Assembly (NCBI GenBank): GCA_919902045.1
Contig: CAKKSP010000019.1
Location: forward strand, 1-32,762
Reading direction: 5' to 3'
Length of the DNA: 32,762 bases
Origin: Omnitrophica bacterium GWA2_41_15
Lineage (GTDB): Bacteria; Omnitrophota; Gorgyraeia; Gygaellales; Profunditerraquicolaceae
Positions 6,091 through 26,136 of the stretch are shown in pieces. The notes under the pieces are model-generated. The model worked only from the letters and a program-made list of their open reading frames with translations, searched no databases and was not told where the DNA came from. A program made the position numbers and the translations under genes. The number at the start of each line of letters is the position of its first letter. Position 1 is the stretch's first letter.

Positions 6091-7665
6091 ATGCGCAAAG
6101 TTAAAATTTACGATACTACTTTAAGAGACGGTTCGCAGGGAGAAGGAATCTCCTATTCGGTGCAGGATAAAATTCGTATCGCTATGGAGCTTGACCGGAT
6201 CGGCGTTCCTTATATTGAGGGCGGTTGGCCGGGATCTAATCCTAAAGATAAGGAATTTTTCCTGGCAATGTCTAAGAAACGCCTTAAAAGAAGCGTATTA
6301 GTTGCTTTTAGTTCTACTTGCCGTTCCGGCGTAAAGGCAAGCGAAGATAAAAACTTATCCGACCTGATTAAATCGCAAGTAAAGATTGCAACGATCTTTG
6401 GTAAAACCTGGGATCTGCATGTGGATGACGTATTAAAGGTCAGCCTTGATGAAAACTTACTCATGATTAAAGATACAGTTAGTTTTTTGGTAAGTAAAGG
6501 AATAGAGGTTTTTTATGATGCTGAACATTTTTTTGATGCCTATAAGGCCAATAAAGAATACAGCCTTAAATGTCTTTTAGCTGCGCAGGAGTCCGGCGCA
6601 AATATAATTGTGCTTTGTGATACAAACGGCGGCACGCTTACTTCAGAAATAGCGCAAATTATCGGAGAAATCAGGCCGTTAATGAGAGTGGAATTAGGAA
6701 TACATTGCCATAATGATTCCGGGCTTGCGATAGCAAATTCACTTTCTGCTGTTGAGGCAGGCGTAAGCATGGTGCAGGGCACAATTAATGGTTATGGAGA
6801 GCGCTGCGGTAACGCCGATCTTATTCCGATCATTGCTAATCTAAGCCTTAAAATGGGAGTAGATTCCATCGGTGATTCCGGAGTTAAGGAATTGGTGCAC
6901 TTGTCACATTTTGTAAGCGAAATAAGCAATATGAAGCAGCGCAGTGATCAGCCCTATGTAGGTGATTCAGCGTTTGCGCATAAAGGCGGAGTGCATATCA
7001 ATGCCGTAATGAAAAACCCCAAGACTTATGAGCACGTTGACCCGGTACTTGTTGGTAATCACCGTCGTATGCTTGTTTCAGAGCTTGGTGGAAAAACTTC
7101 CATTTTACTGCGGGCAAAAGATTTTGCAGTTGATTTAAATAAAAATTCTCCGGAGGCAAAAAAGATTCTTAAGCTTTTACAGCAGCTTGAACATCAGGGT
7201 TATCATTTTGAGGCGGCAGAAGCTTCTTTTGAGTTGTTGATGAAAAGAGCGCTTAAAAAATATAAGAAGTTTTTTGAACTTGAAGGATTCCGCATAGTAG
7301 TTGAGAAACTCGCGAATAAAAAAATTACTTCAGAGGCAATTATTAAAGTAAAGGTTAAAGGAATTCATGAACATACCGCAGCTGAAGGAGACGGCCCGGT
7401 AAATGCCCTGGATAATGCCTTGCGTAAAGCGCTTAAAGATTTTTATCCAACACTTGCTAAGATGCATCTTTCGGATTTTAAGGTAAGGGTGCTTGATGAA
7501 AAAGCCGGGACTGCTGCGCCGGTGCGTGTGCTTATTCAGTCGCAGGATGAGTCAGAGAGTTGGAATACAGTGGGAGTTTCCGGGAATATTATCGAAGCTT
7601 CATGGCAGGCACTATTAGACAGCGTAGAATATAAATTATTAAAAGATAACATTAAAAGCAGCTAA
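6091..7665 (+). CDS. cimA: (R)-citramalate synthase
   Basis: It condenses pyruvate and acetyl-CoA to citramalate, the threonine-independent entry to isoleucine. It belongs to the isopropylmalate/homocitrate synthase family, with TTLRDGSQGEG at residues 9-19, the metal-binding HCHND at 205-209 and a GYGERCGNADL active-site loop. The opening IEGGWPGSNPKD is typical of the long citramalate synthase subgroup rather than LeuA. A C-terminal LeuA-type dimerisation/regulatory domain occupies about residues 400-520 and is expected to sense isoleucine. Length (524 aa) is normal. Its stop overlaps the valS start by one base, so branched-chain amino acid supply and valine charging sit together. Confidence 0.93.
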   Translation: MRKVKIYDTTLRDGSQGEGISYSVQDKIRIAMELDRIGVPYIEGGWPGSNPKDKEFFLAMSKKRLKRSVLVAFSSTCRSGVKASEDKNLSDLIKSQVKIATIFGKTWDLHVDDVLKVSLDENLLMIKDTVSFLVSKGIEVFYDAEHFFDAYKANKEYSLKCLLAAQESGANIIVLCDTNGGTLTSEIAQIIGEIRPLMRVELGIHCHNDSGLAIANSLSAVEAGVSMVQGTINGYGERCGNADLIPIIANLSLKMGVDSIGDSGVKELVHLSHFVSEISNMKQRSDQPYVGDSAFAHKGGVHINAVMKNPKTYEHVDPVLVGNHRRMLVSELGGKTSILLRAKDFAVDLNKNSPEAKKILKLLQQLEHQGYHFEAAEASFELLMKRALKKYKKFFELEGFRIVVEKLANKKITSEAIIKVKVKGIHEHTAAEGDGPVNALDNALRKALKDFYPTLAKMHLSDFKVRVLDEKAGTAAPVRVLIQSQDESESWNTVGVSGNIIEASWQALLDSVEYKLLKDNIKSS

Positions 7666-10418
7666 TGAGCGAAACTCCAACCTGTTATAATCCAAAAGAA
7701 ACAGAAGAAAAGTGGTATAAATTCTGGGAAGAAAATAATTACTTCAAAGCTAAAGTAAATCCAGATAAAAAATCTTTCACCATAGTTATTCCCCCGCCAA
7801 ATGTTACCGGCATCCTGCATATGGGGCATGCCTTAAACAATACAATCCAAGATATTCTTATTCGTTATCAGCGTATGAGAGGCAAAGAGGTGCTCTGGAT
7901 GCCCGGGACAGATCATGCCGGGATTGCCACACAAAATGTTGTGGAAAAAAACCTGGCTAAGGAAGGCTTGGGCCGCCATGATCTTGGACGCGAAAAATTT
8001 ATTGAGCGCGTCTGGGTTTGGAAAGAGCAATATGGCTCAACAATTATCCGCCAGCTGAAAAAACTTGGCGCTTCTTGTGATTGGTCGCGTACCCGCTTTA
8101 CAATGGATGAAGAATATTCAAAAGCGGTAAAAGAAGTTTTTATTAAGCTTTGGGATAAGGGATTGATCTATCAGGATAATAAAGTAATTAACTGGTGCCC
8201 GCGCTGTCAGACCGCACTTTCTGATGAAGAAGCCCCGCATAAGGATATGGAGGGGAGTCTTTATTATATAAAATATCCATTAAAGGGACTGTCCCCTAGC
8301 GGGGACGAGTCCCCGCAGGGGACTGTCCCTGAACATGTCGTAGTCGCAACCACCCGCCCCGAAACTATGCTAGGCGATACCGCAGTGGTCGTAAATCCAA
8401 AAGATAAACGCTACAAAAAATATATCGGTAAAACATTGATTCTGCCATTAGCTAACCGCGAGATTAAAATCATTGCCGATGAGATGGTAGATATGAAGTT
8501 CGGTACGGGTGCGGTTAAAGTTACTCCGGCGCATGATCCCAATGATTATATTTTAGGTAAAAAACATAGCTTAGAGTTTATAAACGTAATGCATCCTGAT
8601 GGCCGCATAAATAATCTGGGCGGAGATTATAAAGATATGGATCGTTTTGAGGCGCGTCAGGCGATCATTAAAGATCTAAAAGAGCGTAATCTACTTGAAA
8701 AAATAGAGCCGCATCCGCTTTCAGCAGGCCATTGTTACCGTTGCCATACGATTATTGAGCCGTACTTATCTAAGCAATGGTTTGTAAAAATGGGGCCTCT
8801 TGCAAAGCCGGCATTGGAAGCGGTAAAAAACGGCACAATCAAGTTCCATCCGCGGCGTTGGACAAAGGTTTATTTAAATTGGATGGAAAATATTCAGGAT
8901 TGGTGTATTTCACGGCAGATTTGGTGGGGGCATCGGTTGCCGTTATATTATTGCAGAAAATGCCAACAGGACAACAGTCATTGCGACCCCGAGCGAAGCG
9001 AGGGGGAAGCAATCTTATCTTCGAAAGATTGCTTCGTCGCTGGAGCTCCTCGCAATGACAAGTCCGTTATTGTTTCTTGTATTAAGCCTGAAAAATGCCC
9101 AAATTGCGGTTCAACCGATATCTACCAGGACGAGGATGTTTTAGACACCTGGTTTTCAAGCTGGCTTTGGCCGTTTGCGACGTTTAGAAATCAGGAAGAT
9201 TTAAAATATTTCTATCCAACGGCAGTATTAGTTACTGCTCCTGAGATCATCTTTTTCTGGGTAGCGCGCATGGTTATGGCAGGATATGAATTTATGGGCA
9301 AAGAGCCTTTTAGTGATGTTTATATCCATGGCACGGTGCGTGACATTGAAGGCAAAAAGATGTCTAAGTCTTTGGGTAATGTTATTGACCCCTTAGATAT
9401 TATCGCCGAATACGGAACTGATGCACTACGTTTTAGCCTTATCTCTATTACTGCGCAAGGCCAAGATGTATTTTTATCAAAAGAGCGTTTTGAACAAGGA
9501 AGAAATTTTTCCAATAAAATTTGGAATGCTACGCGTTTTATCTTAAGCAATATTGATCCTGAGGTTACTAAAACCGACCTTTGTGTGATTTTTAAAAATT
9601 CAGAGCTTGGTATTTTTGAGCGTTGGATTTTGAGCCGGTTTTATAACACTTTAAAACAGGTTAATAAAAATCTCGAAGCTTATAAATTTAACGAAGCGGC
9701 AAATATTTTATACTCATTTTTCTGGCATGAATTTTGTGACTGGTATTTAGAGTTGGCAAAGCTAACTATTCAGAAAAAAACTACACAGATTGTTTTATAT
9801 AAGGTGCTTGAGAAATTTTTGCGCCTTGCGCATCCTTTTATGCCTTTTATTACCGAAGAACTTTGGTATCAGACTAATCCTGAACATGGTTCTATCATGA
9901 TCTCGTCATGGCCGCATTTGCAAGAAAATATGATTGATAAAAAAGTTGAGCAGAAGGTAGAAACAATTTTTAACCTGGTTGCGGTATTACGTAATATGCG
10001 CGCGGAACTTGAAATATTACCTCAAGATCCCATTAAGGCAAAAATCTTTTCTACTGTTAAACAGGAAAGGCTTTTAGCTGAGGAAGTAAAGCCTTATATA
10101 ATGCGTTTAGCTCGTCTTGATCAGCTTGATATCGAAGAGAAATATGCACATATTAGCGGAGAGTTTACCGCAATCGTAGAAAAAATGCATGTTGTTATAC
10201 CTCTTACGGGAGTTTTAGATATTGCATCCTATCGTAATAAATTAGGGCAAAAAATAAAAAAGGCAGAAAATGATTTAAACTCTAAAGAGGCGATGATTAG
10301 AAATGAGCAATTTGTAAAAAAGGCTCCGGTTGAAGTAGTGGAAAAAGAACGACAGAGGATTATAGAATTAAAAGAAACTATTCACAAACTAAAGGCGGTG
10401 GAAGATGGGATACGGTAA
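7665..10418 (+). CDS. valS: Valyl-tRNA synthetase
   Basis: This class Ia synthetase charges tRNA-Val. The HIGH motif is H52-M-G-H55 (in PPNVTGILHMGHALN) and the KMSKS motif is at residues 565-569. The editing (CP1) region contains VVATTRPETMLGDTA. Cysteine pairs YCRKC and CPNCG flank an unusual segment. A C-terminal coiled coil (ending KERQRIIELKETIHKLKAVE) is the usual tRNA-binding arm. Two segments look inserted: residues about 208-222 (rich in S, G, P, encoded by a 45-bp palindromic element) and about 438-465 (encoded by an 83-bp palindromic repeat). Both keep the frame open, and the catalytic motifs are intact, so the enzyme is likely functional. The gene overlaps cimA by 1 base and nadC by 14. 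Confidence 0.96.
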   Translation: MSETPTCYNPKETEEKWYKFWEENNYFKAKVNPDKKSFTIVIPPPNVTGILHMGHALNNTIQDILIRYQRMRGKEVLWMPGTDHAGIATQNVVEKNLAKEGLGRHDLGREKFIERVWVWKEQYGSTIIRQLKKLGASCDWSRTRFTMDEEYSKAVKEVFIKLWDKGLIYQDNKVINWCPRCQTALSDEEAPHKDMEGSLYYIKYPLKGLSPSGDESPQGTVPEHVVVATTRPETMLGDTAVVVNPKDKRYKKYIGKTLILPLANREIKIIADEMVDMKFGTGAVKVTPAHDPNDYILGKKHSLEFINVMHPDGRINNLGGDYKDMDRFEARQAIIKDLKERNLLEKIEPHPLSAGHCYRCHTIIEPYLSKQWFVKMGPLAKPALEAVKNGTIKFHPRRWTKVYLNWMENIQDWCISRQIWWGHRLPLYYCRKCQQDNSHCDPERSEGEAILSSKDCFVAGAPRNDKSVIVSCIKPEKCPNCGSTDIYQDEDVLDTWFSSWLWPFATFRNQEDLKYFYPTAVLVTAPEIIFFWVARMVMAGYEFMGKEPFSDVYIHGTVRDIEGKKMSKSLGNVIDPLDIIAEYGTDALRFSLISITAQGQDVFLSKERFEQGRNFSNKIWNATRFILSNIDPEVTKTDLCVIFKNSELGIFERWILSRFYNTLKQVNKNLEAYKFNEAANILYSFFWHEFCDWYLELAKLTIQKKTTQIVLYKVLEKFLRLAHPFMPFITEELWYQTNPEHGSIMISSWPHLQENMIDKKVEQKVETIFNLVAVLRNMRAELEILPQDPIKAKIFSTVKQERLLAEEVKPYIMRLARLDQLDIEEKYAHISGEFTAIVEKMHVVIPLTGVLDIASYRNKLGQKIKKAENDLNSKEAMIRNEQFVKKAPVEVVEKERQRIIELKETIHKLKAVEDGIR
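8285..8329. repeat. 45-bp palindromic repeat element within valS
   Basis: Three successive hairpins of the form GGGAC-loop-GTCCC fill exactly 45 bases (15 codons): GGGACTGTCCCC, GGGGACGAGTCCCC and GGGGACTGTCCC. The peptide they encode, around SPSGDESPQGTVP, interrupts the editing region of ValS just before VVVATTRPET. It is probably a small dispersed palindromic repeat that landed in frame. Confidence 0.75.
8977..9059. repeat. 83-bp palindromic (MITE/REP-like) repeat within valS
   Basis: The terminal inverted repeats are GTCATTGCGA (8977-8986) and TCGCAATGAC (9050-9059). An inner pair GAAGCAATCTT (9006-9016) and AAGATTGCTTC (9025-9035) completes a long hairpin. The sequence resembles a CATTGCGAGCGAAGC... 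type of dispersed palindrome that I recall from several bacterial groups. It adds about 28 residues (around CDPERSEGEAILSS) to ValS without breaking the frame. Confidence 0.85.
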
Positions 10419-13995: not shown

Positions 13996-14019
13996 AACTA
14001 TGTAAATATATGCTATACT
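13992..14019 (+). promoter_or_regulatory. Sigma70-type promoter ahead of the riboswitch
   Basis: TTGAAA (13992-13997), a 16-base spacer and TATACT (14014-14019) with an extended -10 TG (TGCTATACT). It overlaps the end of coaX and would start transcription just before the structured leader. The 16 bases ATATGCTATACTTTTA recur exactly at the promoter near 20770. Confidence 0.7.
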
Positions 14020-14040
14020 TTTAATACAATCTGGAAACGC

Positions 14041-14082
14041 CCGGCGCAATCGGAATATGCGCCGGCGTGGCCCTCGTGGCCA
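14041..14082 (+). ncRNA. Two leader hairpins upstream of the aptamer
   Basis: CCGGCGCA (14041-14048) pairs with TGCGCCGG (14058-14065). TGGCC (14068-14072) pairs with GGCCA (14078-14082). The first hairpin is almost the same as the one at 205-246 before the PilZ gene, once that copy's inserted palindrome is removed. Confidence 0.6.
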
Positions 14083-14083
14083 A

Positions 14084-14210
14084 AGCTTGAAAAAGGTAAA
14101 CCAGCAGTGATGTTGGGACTCCGCCAAAAATATTGGCGGACTCGCCGAAGCAGTATGGCGAGACAAAGCCACCGATCCTAATCATAAGGAAGGACAGCGG
14201 GGCTGCCAAG
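14084..14210 (+). ncRNA. c-di-GMP-I (GEMM) type riboswitch with inserted hairpins
   Basis: The conserved pieces appear in order. AAAGGTAAACC (GGTAAACC at 14095-14102) is followed by hairpin CCAGCA-GTGA-TGTTGG with a GNRA tetraloop, then GGGAC (14115-14119), ACAAAGCC (14163-14170), a CCT...AGG stem, and finally GCGGGGCTGCC (ending 14207). GGTA pairs with TGCC to close the aptamer. The residue matching the ligand-contacting G20 of the Vibrio Vc2 aptamer appears to be G, favouring c-di-GMP over c-GAMP. Between GGGAC and ACAAAGCC, which are normally contiguous, 43 bases forming two perfect 6-bp hairpins are inserted. A terminator follows, so control is probably at transcription termination. Confidence 0.78.
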
Positions 14211-22216: not shown

Positions 22217-22444
22217 ATGCCAAACGATAACATATATCTGCTTAAGGACTTAGCTCACCTTACTGGTTTATCCGTTTATACAATTAAATATTATCTTAAT
22301 CTGGGGTTGATAAAAGAGGTTAACCGCAGCCCAGAAACCCACTTTCGTTATTTTAACGATTCTACCGTAGAGAACCTGCAAAAAATTCGCGCCTTTCGTA
22401 AAAAAGGAAAATCGCTAAAGGAGATCAAGCGTGAGTTATTATAA
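22217..22444 (+). CDS. MerR-type DNA-binding regulator (DNA-binding domain only)
   Basis: The 75 residues match the N-terminal winged-helix domain of MerR regulators: YLLKDLAHLTGLSVYTIKYY (helix-turn-helix), then GLIKEVNRSPETHFRYFND (wing) and LKEIKREL at the end. There is no dimerisation coiled coil or effector domain, so it is a minimal, excisionase-like form. It begins shortly after a promoter and palindromic site and overlaps the ExeA-like ATPase gene by 14 bases. It therefore most likely controls the export operon that it heads. The ribosome-binding site is weak. Confidence 0.85.
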   Translation: MPNDNIYLLKDLAHLTGLSVYTIKYYLNLGLIKEVNRSPETHFRYFNDSTVENLQKIRAFRKKGKSLKEIKRELL

Positions 22445-23243
22445 CGTGCTTGGCCTTGAGCGAGAGCCTTTTTCTACAAGCCCTGACCCTGATTTTCTTT
22501 ACCGTTCTGTAAGCCATGAAACTGCCCTGAAACGGCTTGAGATTGCAATCCGCCTGCGACGGGGATTGAGTATTATTTTAGGAGATGTCGGAACAGGAAA
22601 AACTACGCTTTCTCGCGCGCTGTTGCAGATTTTTAAGGATGAAGAAGATTTTATTTTTCATCTCGTGCTTGATCCTAATTACAAGTCAGAATATCAGTTC
22701 CTTTTGAGCCTTGCCAAGATGTTTAACATTGTTCCGGAATTTAAATCCACCCTTGATTTTAAAGAAGCGCTCCAGCGTTACCTTTATCAAAAAGGGGTTG
22801 AAGAAAATAAAACCATAGTTTTATTAATTGACGAAGGCCAGAAGATCAGCCCGGAAAACCTTGAGGTGCTGCGCACGCTGCTAAATTATGAAACTAACGA
22901 ATTTAAACTTCTGCAGTTAATTATAATGGCACAGGTTGAACTTTTGCCCAGGATCAAGCGTGTTCGTAATTTTATTGACCGTGTGGCGCTAAAGTATACG
23001 ATTAATCCTTTGGACGAAGAAGAGACGCGCAAGATGATACTTTTTCGGTTGCACCAAGGAGGGTATGATCATGGAGGAAGTGTTTTTACTGATGATGCGA
23101 TCAAGACAATTTATCAGCATACACAAGGGTATCCGCGCCGTATCTCTATGCTTTGCCATGATGCACTTGAACTTATGGTCATGGAAGAGCATCGTTATAT
23201 TGACGGACTCCTTATAAAAAAGATCATTAAACAGCAGGAATAA
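22431..23243 (+). CDS. ExeA/GspA-like AAA ATPase
   Basis: This is a general-secretion-pathway-type ATPase of 270 residues. It opens with YYNVLGLEREPFSTSPDPDF, the typical start of ExeA-like proteins. Walker A is GDVGTGKT (51-58) and Walker B is VLLIDEGQ (130-136), with sensor and lid regions following. In Aeromonas, ExeA with ExeB helps the secretin pass peptidoglycan and assemble; here no peptidoglycan-binding domain or membrane segment is seen. The start is GTG with AAAGGAG upstream (from 22417), inside the end of the MerR gene. The GspC-like gene overlaps its stop by one base, and the secretin follows, which supports a role in secretin assembly. Confidence 0.88.
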   Translation: MSYYNVLGLEREPFSTSPDPDFLYRSVSHETALKRLEIAIRLRRGLSIILGDVGTGKTTLSRALLQIFKDEEDFIFHLVLDPNYKSEYQFLLSLAKMFNIVPEFKSTLDFKEALQRYLYQKGVEENKTIVLLIDEGQKISPENLEVLRTLLNYETNEFKLLQLIIMAQVELLPRIKRVRNFIDRVALKYTINPLDEEETRKMILFRLHQGGYDHGGSVFTDDAIKTIYQHTQGYPRRISMLCHDALELMVMEEHRYIDGLLIKKIIKQQE

Positions 23244-23839
23244 TGAGCGAATACGTAGCCCCTGAAGAAAAACTTTTGCGATTGATTAGAGGCCAGAAAA
23301 AGCCTGTGGTTTTAGGTGATTTGCCTAAAAAACAATCAGCGCAGGAAAAAGTAAAGAAAGAATTTGGGTTTGTTTTAAATTTAACAAAAATAAAGAATTT
23401 TAGCCTGGGAATTTTTATTTTGAGTTCATTGATTTTTTTACTGCTCTTAAATTGGCCTGCTTACACGCCAAAAGAGTTGGTGCATCAGGCAGTTGTTATT
23501 AAACAGGTAGCTCTTGATATTGAAAAAAATAAGGCTGATGCCGGCGAGGATCTGGATAAATATTTAGCAGGTGCAGAGAAGAAGCAGATTTTTTTGTTAT
23601 CAAGTAAAACTGAAAATGCGCAAGTAGCAGCGATTGCTGCTTCAGAACTGTTAAAAGATTTAAGCCTTTTAGGGGTAATCACCGGAGATGACCCGCAGGC
23701 AGTGGTGGAAGATAAGTTAAGCCAGAAAACATATTATTTAAAAGAAGGGCAGTTTGTCAGGGAGTTCAAACTTAAAAAAATCGGAGAAGCAAAAATTATC
23801 CTTGAATACGGAGGAGATGAATTTGAGTTGCATTTATAA
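23243..23839 (+). CDS. GspC-like inner-membrane protein of a type II secretion-like system
   Basis: The protein has a cytoplasmic N-terminus of about 50 residues, one membrane segment (about residues 53-70, LGIFILSSLIFLLLLNW) and a periplasmic part. The C-terminal stretch LSLLGVITGDDPQAVVED...TYYLKEGQFVREFKLKKIGEAKIILEY resembles the homology region of GspC/PilP proteins, which contacts the secretin. No PDZ domain is present. Length is 198 aa. Its position between an ExeA-like ATPase and a secretin supports the assignment, which is by pattern and context rather than strong motif. It overlaps the ATPase stop by one base. Confidence 0.75.
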   Translation: MSEYVAPEEKLLRLIRGQKKPVVLGDLPKKQSAQEKVKKEFGFVLNLTKIKNFSLGIFILSSLIFLLLLNWPAYTPKELVHQAVVIKQVALDIEKNKADAGEDLDKYLAGAEKKQIFLLSSKTENAQVAAIAASELLKDLSLLGVITGDDPQAVVEDKLSQKTYYLKEGQFVREFKLKKIGEAKIILEYGGDEFELHL

Positions 23840-23877: not shown

Positions 23878-23905
23878 GCTAATTGTGTTTTATGCCGGAG
23901 GTCCG

Positions 23906-25555
23906 ATGAAAAGGAATCGTTTATTTATAATAATATCTATAATTGGGTTATCGGTTTTCGGTGCTCGTGGCTCGGCATTATACGCTCAGGATGCAATTTC
24001 GCCAAAGATCTCTTCAAATAAAATCTCCCTTGATATTAAAGGCATGGATGTGGTTGATGTGATTAAGATGCTCGCCACAAGAAACGGGATAAATGTTGTA
24101 GTCGGCAAAAATGTCAGCGGAAAAGTTACTCTATTTCTTAAGGAAGTAGATATGTGGGATGCCTTTGAGATTATTCTTCTTTCAAATGAACTGGCCTATG
24201 ATAAAAAAGGCGATATCATAAATATTATGACCCAGCGGGATTATGAATTAATCTATGGAGAGCGTTATAAAGATGCCAAAGAAGCCGCAATCGTTTCTCT
24301 TAAGTATGCAAAAGCAATTGACCTGGCACGCGCCTTAAATCAGATAAAGACAAATATCGGCCGCATTGTGGTAGACGAGGGTTCAAATACCATGGTACTT
24401 ATTGATTCTGCGGCTAAAGTTGCGGATATGAAACGATTCATTAAGGAAACGGACCTGCCCGTACAGACAAAGGTCTTTAGCCTGAATTACGCTCAAGTAG
24501 ATAAACTTAGCCCGAAAATTCAGGATACGCTTACTAAGGGTGTTGGTACAATGAAGATTGATGAGAGGACGAATAAAATCGTAATTACCGATTATCCGGA
24601 AAAAATAATCGAGATAGCTGCGTTGATGAAGGCTTTTGATGAGAAAACTCCCCAAGTGCTTATTGATGCTCAAATAATTGAGGTACGGCCTTCGAATAAG
24701 TTTGAAATGGGAGTGGATTGGGATTTCTGGATTGAGAAAAATTTTAAACTCGCATCGTCGCTTCCGATCAGCACCAGCGGCCGTTTAGTAGTAGGTACGC
24801 CTTCGGTTGCACCTACTCAAAAAGGAGATTATAAAGCGATCCTAGATTTATTGCGCACTATCGGTAATACTAAAATTCTTTCAAGCCCTCGGATTATGGC
24901 ATTGAATAATCAGGAAGCGATGATCATGGTCGGTTCAAAGGAGGCTTATGCCTCTACTACTACGGTTACAGGCGATGGCGGCACGGTTACTACAGCAGAA
25001 AATATTACTTTTGTGGATGTTGGGATCAAGCTCCATGTTACTCCTACGATTAACCGGGAAAATTTTGTCACTATGAAAATAAAACCGGAGGTAAGTTCCG
25101 TAGGCAGTGAATATCTGACTGCTAAAGGCGAGACTATCCCGGAGATTTCTACTTCCGAAGCAGAAACTACCGTAATGGTCAAAGACGGTGTTACCGTAAT
25201 TATCGGAGGTTTAAAAAAGGACGAAAAATATAAAACCCAAAAAGAGATCCCGTTTATCGCAAAAATACCTTTAGTGGGATTATTATTCCGTAACTTATCT
25301 GAAGAGCGTAAAAATACGGAACTTGTGATTCTACTTACTCCGCATATTATGTCCGGGGAAAGTTCTTTTACCGAATTTAGTGATATCAGGCCTAAAGACG
25401 GAGCGATAATTAAACTTGATAAAGAAGGCAATGTAAAACAAGATGTTTGTAAAGATAGTAATGAAGATGAAACTATGCAGGCCGGTTGGGAATATTACCG
25501 GTTTTTGATAGATAAGGTGAGCCGGGTTGCTAAAAAAGCAGCGCCTGTCGGATAA
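23906..25555 (+). CDS. Secretin (GspD/PilQ family outer-membrane channel)
   Basis: A signal peptide (about residues 1-28, ending LYAQ) is followed by an STN/N0-type domain (ISLDIKGMDVVDVIKMLA) and secretin N-domains. The C-terminal secretin barrel is typical: VDVGIKLHVTPTI, then TTVMVKDGVTVIIGGL and IPLVGLLFRN...TELVILLTPHIM. ATG 23906 is preferred over the in-frame GTG 23885 because GGAGG (23897-23901) lies just before it and it puts the signal peptide at the N-terminus. The channel should export folded proteins or pili across the outer membrane. After the barrel, WEYYRFLIDKVSRVAKKAAP resembles the first helix of a TonB C-terminal domain. The rest of that domain continues in the same frame beyond the TAA stop. 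Confidence 0.93.
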   Translation: MKRNRLFIIISIIGLSVFGARGSALYAQDAISPKISSNKISLDIKGMDVVDVIKMLATRNGINVVVGKNVSGKVTLFLKEVDMWDAFEIILLSNELAYDKKGDIINIMTQRDYELIYGERYKDAKEAAIVSLKYAKAIDLARALNQIKTNIGRIVVDEGSNTMVLIDSAAKVADMKRFIKETDLPVQTKVFSLNYAQVDKLSPKIQDTLTKGVGTMKIDERTNKIVITDYPEKIIEIAALMKAFDEKTPQVLIDAQIIEVRPSNKFEMGVDWDFWIEKNFKLASSLPISTSGRLVVGTPSVAPTQKGDYKAILDLLRTIGNTKILSSPRIMALNNQEAMIMVGSKEAYASTTTVTGDGGTVTTAENITFVDVGIKLHVTPTINRENFVTMKIKPEVSSVGSEYLTAKGETIPEISTSEAETTVMVKDGVTVIIGGLKKDEKYKTQKEIPFIAKIPLVGLLFRNLSEERKNTELVILLTPHIMSGESSFTEFSDIRPKDGAIIKLDKEGNVKQDVCKDSNEDETMQAGWEYYRFLIDKVSRVAKKAAPVG

Positions 25556-25753
25556 AAAGGGATAGTTAAAATTATTTTTTCTTTGACTAATGACGGCAGC
25601 CTTATTTCGGAGCCGCAGGCAGAAACGCAGGGGAATAATATTTTGGTTGAGGCTGCGATAAAGGCGGTAAAATCTGCTGCTCCGTTTGCGCCTTTTCCGA
25701 AATATCTTAATAAAGAAAAAGAAGTTTTTAAAATTATGCTGGCTTATGAATAG
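25556..25753 (+). other. TonB C-terminal-like domain in phase behind the secretin stop codon
   Basis: The 65 codons between the secretin TAA (25553-25555) and TAG (25751-25753) read without interruption. They start with KGIVKIIFSLTNDGSL, then have a helix NNILVEAAIKAVKSAAPFAP and end VFKIMLAYE. This is the pattern of a TonB_C domain (strand with FxLxxDGSL, helix with AAxxAVxxAxPF, final strand). No ATG or good ribosome-binding site opens it; the first alternative start is TTG 25583, inside the domain. I infer a secretin-TonB_C fusion broken by one stop codon. Recent mutation, sequencing or assembly error, and stop-codon readthrough are all possible. Confidence 0.7.
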
Positions 25754-25764
25754 GAGATAAACCT

Positions 25765-26136
25765 ATGGCAGAATTATTGATCGTAGACGACGAAACAGAT
25801 GTGCGGGAGTTTGCCGCGAATTTTTTCCGTAAACGTAAAATTGATGTGATCACCGCAGGAAGCGGGGAAGAAGCGCTTTTATTCATTGAAAAAGAAAAAC
25901 CCAAGCTCGTACTTTTAGATATTACGATGCCCGGGATAGACGGGATTGAAACCCTGCGCCGGATCAGAAAGTTAAATGAAAAACTGAATGTTGTTATGGT
26001 GACAGGAATTTATCCTGATGAAGGTGACGCTTTTAAACAGTGCCAGGAATTAGGAGTAAAGGTATACATTCATAAACCGTTAAGGCTTGAAGAATTGCAG
26101 GAAGTGGTTTTAAGGGAGATGGCCCTATGCGCGTAG
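25765..26136 (+). CDS. CheY-like single-domain response regulator
   Basis: This is a stand-alone receiver domain of 123 residues with D8/D9 (IVDDE), phosphoacceptor D52 (LLDITMPG), T80 (MVTG) and K104 (HKPLR). No output domain is attached. AGGAG lies 8 bases before the ATG. It overlaps the HD-GYP phosphodiesterase gene by 10 bases, so it probably controls that enzyme as a separately made receiver; many HD-GYP proteins carry such a domain fused. No cognate histidine kinase is present in the window. Confidence 0.93.
   Translation: MAELLIVDDETDVREFAANFFRKRKIDVITAGSGEEALLFIEKEKPKLVLLDITMPGIDGIETLRRIRKLNEKLNVVMVTGIYPDEGDAFKQCQELGVKVYIHKPLRLEELQEVVLREMALCA

Follow-up and report, generated by a model that had tools for sequence, protein, structure and literature searches.

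In the stretch of Omnitrophota DNA analysed here (the window, 32,762 nucleotides), the gene for a GspD-like secretin is interrupted by a TAA codon that falls inside a C-terminal TonB_C domain, and the interruption is probably a recent nonsense mutation that truncates an apparently dispensable domain. As translated, the secretin ORF occupies 23906..25555 of the forward strand, with ATG 23906 as its likely start; a longer alternative (23885-25555) would begin at the in-frame GTG 23885. The ORF comprises an N0-like part, Secretin_N, the Secretin domain, a linker and the first helix of TonB_C, and it ends ...YYRFLIDKVSRVAKKAAPVG-TAA. Both Secretin (162 bits) and Secretin_N (75 bits) score above the curated Pfam cut-offs upstream of the stop, and by these two domains the product is a GspD-like secretin. 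Beyond the TAA, the frame of the secretin stays open for a further 65 codons of TonB_C (KGIVKII...LAYE) and closes with a TAG at 25751-25753; this forward-strand segment (25556..25753) has no ATG or GTG of its own.

An earlier sequence-only reading of this DNA had described a TonB_C domain continuing in frame past the secretin stop, with the residues on either side of the TAA forming one domain, and the family match bears out both statements. On the forward strand, TonB_C (PF03544) matches across the stop at 25535..25714, which corresponds to residues 551-609 of the read-through protein, and scores 28.4 bits where the cut-off is 24.6; the stop is residue 557, and the 3' piece alone scores 26.8 bits. 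In the window, the domain appears in the open frame after the Secretin domain only if the TAA at 25553-25555 is read through, while 26 relatives have it without that need. A structure model of the last 172 residues of the read-through protein, in which the stop is residue 107, is confident from about residue 81 onwards (in blocks of ten residues, mean pLDDT is 84-95 from 81 to 172) and consists of a helix (78-101), a strand (109-118), a second helix (135-148) and a second strand (162-171). In this predicted fold the TAA (forward strand) follows helix 1 and precedes strand 1. A Foldseek search with the model returned the H. pylori TonB-CTD as nearest (E 4e-5) and TolA domain III more weakly, and the domain spanning the stop is accordingly modelled as a TonB_C fold.

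Secretins of the same order give a view of what the gene looked like without the stop. Among 128 genomes of this order, 30 (the window's included) hold a close match over most of its length, and the join could be read in 28 of these secretins; the two left out were that of G046, where the domain is absent, and one match cut at a contig edge. The sequence-only reading had staked the fusion on the existence of uninterrupted homologues, and many exist: TonB_C lacks an interrupting stop in 26 of the 28, and the alignment column of the window's TAA is a sense codon in relatives. The two exceptions are the window itself and G043 (L030, G043:C81), whose own TAA lies in the first helix of TonB_C, 11 alignment columns upstream of the window's, and is independent of it. 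Two other secretins, those of G046 (L043/L257) and G054 (L256), end before the domain, with no TonB_C remnant after the stop. A scan of genome contigs with the single read-through protein as query gave no match, and matches came when an alignment served as the query; an order-wide search with the C-terminal alignment then yielded further stop-free fused secretins and showed that the matches of a second family of secretins, which are shorter (about 535-595 aa), likewise extend to the end of TonB_C. A secretin with a C-terminal TonB_C is a common arrangement in this order (L016-L044 and further loci). No paper on a secretin fused to TonB_C was found in the literature searched, which is not proof of absence. 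In G060, a frame of 225 aa about 900 bases from the fused secretin also has a TonB_C-like match (G060:C2:289444-291328).

The genes on either side of the secretin are also informative. Downstream on the forward strand lies a response regulator gene with its ribosome-binding site (25754..26136, ATG 25765); this site, AGGAG, overlaps and follows the TAG at 25751-25753. The same TAGGAG...ATGGC junction occurs at the end of the window's TonB_C frame and at the end of the intact fusion L017 of G115, and in both cases the ATG opens the same response regulator; the L017 fusion ends TAGGAGAGGACAACATGGC and the window's post-stop frame ends TAGGAGATAAACCTATGGC. With the Shine-Dalgarno sequence of the response regulator placed directly at this TAG, the shared junction points to the TAG as the ancestral gene end, and the secretin gene most likely once ended at 25753. 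Upstream, also on the forward strand, are a gene for an ExeA-like AAA ATPase (22431..23243), which is a clear match, and one for a GspB/GspC-like periplasmic protein (23243..23839), with weak T2SSB and T2SSC matches below the Pfam cut-off. Farther away in the window, a 61-codon stretch (13996-14178) with no family match stays open in frame past the stop of a pantothenate kinase gene, which is probably chance.

The preferred explanation takes as ancestor a GspD-like secretin ending in a TonB_C-fold domain, the architecture common in the order. A recent nonsense substitution, in the lineage of the window or in the strain sampled, would halt translation after the first helix of TonB_C, and the cell would then make a secretin channel without the complete domain. 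We infer that the TAA mutation is real and recent, and that the truncated channel works. Because the domain is likewise missing or interrupted in other lineages, TonB_C appears to be dispensable for keeping the channel gene. The sequence-only reading had left the choice between a recent truncation and a fusion hidden by one stop, whether through readthrough or error; these options hold up, and truncation is favoured among them because the search for suppressor tRNAs found none, relatives do not share the stop, G043 has an independent stop, and G046 and G054 have no domain. Truncation ranks as likeliest, followed by a base-call error or strain variant and then by readthrough.

The condition of the sequence beyond the stop bears on the age of the mutation. 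With a leave-one-out HMM, the post-stop part scores 80.9 bits, compared with 75.7-94.5 in relatives; its identity is not unusual when set against that of the core, and GC is spread over its codon positions as in the gene. The post-stop part of G043 likewise shows no decay by the same measures. This lack of decay argues for a stop that is young relative to the branch it lies on, but a preserved post-stop part would be expected from a young nonsense mutation, from a base-call error and from readthrough, and does not separate them alone. The three longest end branches in the secretin tree belong to the window's genome (G000), G043 and G046, in all of which TonB_C is cut or missing. In a control tree built from another gene of the window (7665-10418, 917 aa), G000 was again among the longer end branches (0.71). 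Relaxed constraint was therefore dropped as a reading of the long secretin branch in the window, for which a fast or isolated lineage accounts.

The main alternative, to which we give a real but clearly smaller chance, is that a single miscalled or minority-strain base entered a metagenome assembly and that the gene of the organism is an intact secretin-TonB_C fusion. Only one codon interrupts an otherwise complete fusion whose 3' part has not decayed, and the source is a fragmented metagenome bin (1.14 Mb, 82% complete, 51 contigs). Moreover, the secretin of the low-completeness genome G124 (L040, G124:C74) carries a lone TGA in its N-terminal part with TonB_C intact; this TGA, possibly a base-call error, seems a comparable flaw. 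Two observations speak against this alternative. A scan of 670 kb (653 ORFs, 59% of the genome) was made for in-frame extensions of at least 40 codons, and those other than the secretin's were neighbour genes with their own start, one contig-edge case, or sequence that was not domain-like. The in-frame continuation after the secretin is not chance, since the other long extensions are otherwise explained. No other gene stop followed by a start-less domain continuation was seen in this 59%, with the extensions judged by eye, and so no other clear one-stop domain cut is known from the 670 kb, within the limits of a scan that would miss interruptions whose 3' piece holds its own long start-to-stop frame. 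An assembly error also sits poorly with a second genome that has a stop in TonB_C and two more that are without the domain; with the stop in G043 and the missing domain in G046 and G054, truncation seems to be biologically tolerated.

Another, rather improbable, explanation is stop codon readthrough, by which UAA would be decoded some of the time to yield a short secretin together with some long secretin-TonB_C protein. The frame downstream of the stop is conserved, as this would require, and the RNA after the stop folds slightly more stably than shuffled sequences (z = -2.0, with 8 of 200 shuffles as good), but this fold signal is weak and lies within coding sequence. Nor does the genome look like one that reads UAA as sense. 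TAA is its main stop, ending 390 of the 653 ORFs in the 670 kb, and by this count a global reassignment of TAA was rejected; two release-factor genes are also present. A search for suppressor tRNAs, which had been proposed as a check, was carried out by family, and none of the 26 tRNA matches in the 82% complete assembly had a stop-reading anticodon; the tRNA that was omitted by ARAGORN and recovered by the family search is a threonine tRNA by its loop. With no TAA-reading tRNA among these matches, suppression by a tRNA was rejected as well. Programmed readthrough would be marked by a stop conserved in place along with a conserved downstream frame, and this combination does not occur among the relatives, where 26 lack the stop and G043 has its own in another column. 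This lack of conservation makes programmed readthrough unlikely. Even less probable is an elaboration in which frequent readthrough of the TAA would maintain two secretin forms, with and without the TonB_C tail, as a lineage-specific tuning of the channel, and in which the TAA of G043 would be a counterpart. The single stop in the window is probably a matter of ordinary gene decay or of a base-call error rather than of a novel mode of gene expression.

It is very improbable that the 3' piece forms a small gene of its own, expressed by reinitiation or from TTG 25583. A 56-codon frame does begin at that TTG, but, as the sequence-only reading had held, the piece has no usable start or ribosome-binding site (no ATG or GTG, a first TTG ten codons in, and no Shine-Dalgarno at a proper distance). 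A start at this TTG would by the model leave the domain without its first helix and its first strand, which makes a separate gene implausible. Among the related secretins inspected, none is directly followed by TonB_C as an independent gene, the arrangement that was to speak against a fusion.

The fused secretin resembles several known systems in its parts. Like the GspD secretins of type II secretion systems, it has strong Secretin and Secretin_N matches, with an ExeA-like ATPase gene and a putative GspB/GspC-like gene directly upstream. Known T2SS secretins, however, end in an S-domain that binds pilotin (PMC6532946), whereas the relatives here end in a TonB_C that in the window is cut by the stop. 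In the pilotin-independent ExeD, the pilotin-binding region could be changed with little effect, but deletion of the whole S-domain led to poor assembly (PMC6532946). The domain shares with TonB and TolA a PF03544 match above cut-off across the stop and a model that matches the H. pylori TonB-CTD and, more weakly, TolA domain III, yet it is carried by a predicted outer-membrane secretin instead of an inner-membrane TonB or TolA protein, and it has neither a transmembrane anchor nor a proline-rich stalk of its own. A third comparison is with ExeB, a TonB-like protein (reported as 39% similar to TonB) that acts with ExeA and binds the secretin ExeD (PMC4098917). In ExeB/GspB, as here, a TonB-like part would work with an ExeA-type ATPase and a secretin, but there it belongs to a separate protein and here it is fused to the secretin; the comparison is a likeness of parts and not a claim of homology. 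By analogy with the S-domain and pilotin and with ExeB and ExeD, and given the ExeA-like and GspB/GspC-like neighbours, it is plausible that the fused TonB_C guides or anchors the secretin.

The occurrence of secretin-TonB_C in an uncultured bacterial order points to a further route by which secretion channels might be guided or anchored, besides the known alternatives of an S-domain with pilotin or a separate TonB-like ExeB. Several lineages have TonB_C interrupted or lack it; the domain can apparently be lost, and its role is therefore testable. As for other TonB-related genes, the interrupted domain (G000:C19:25535-25714) is the only PF03544 match in its genome assembly, which also holds one MotA/ExbB gene (G000:C16:9512-9886), and in many other genomes of the order there are proteins, about 230 aa long, with a match to the TonB_C part.
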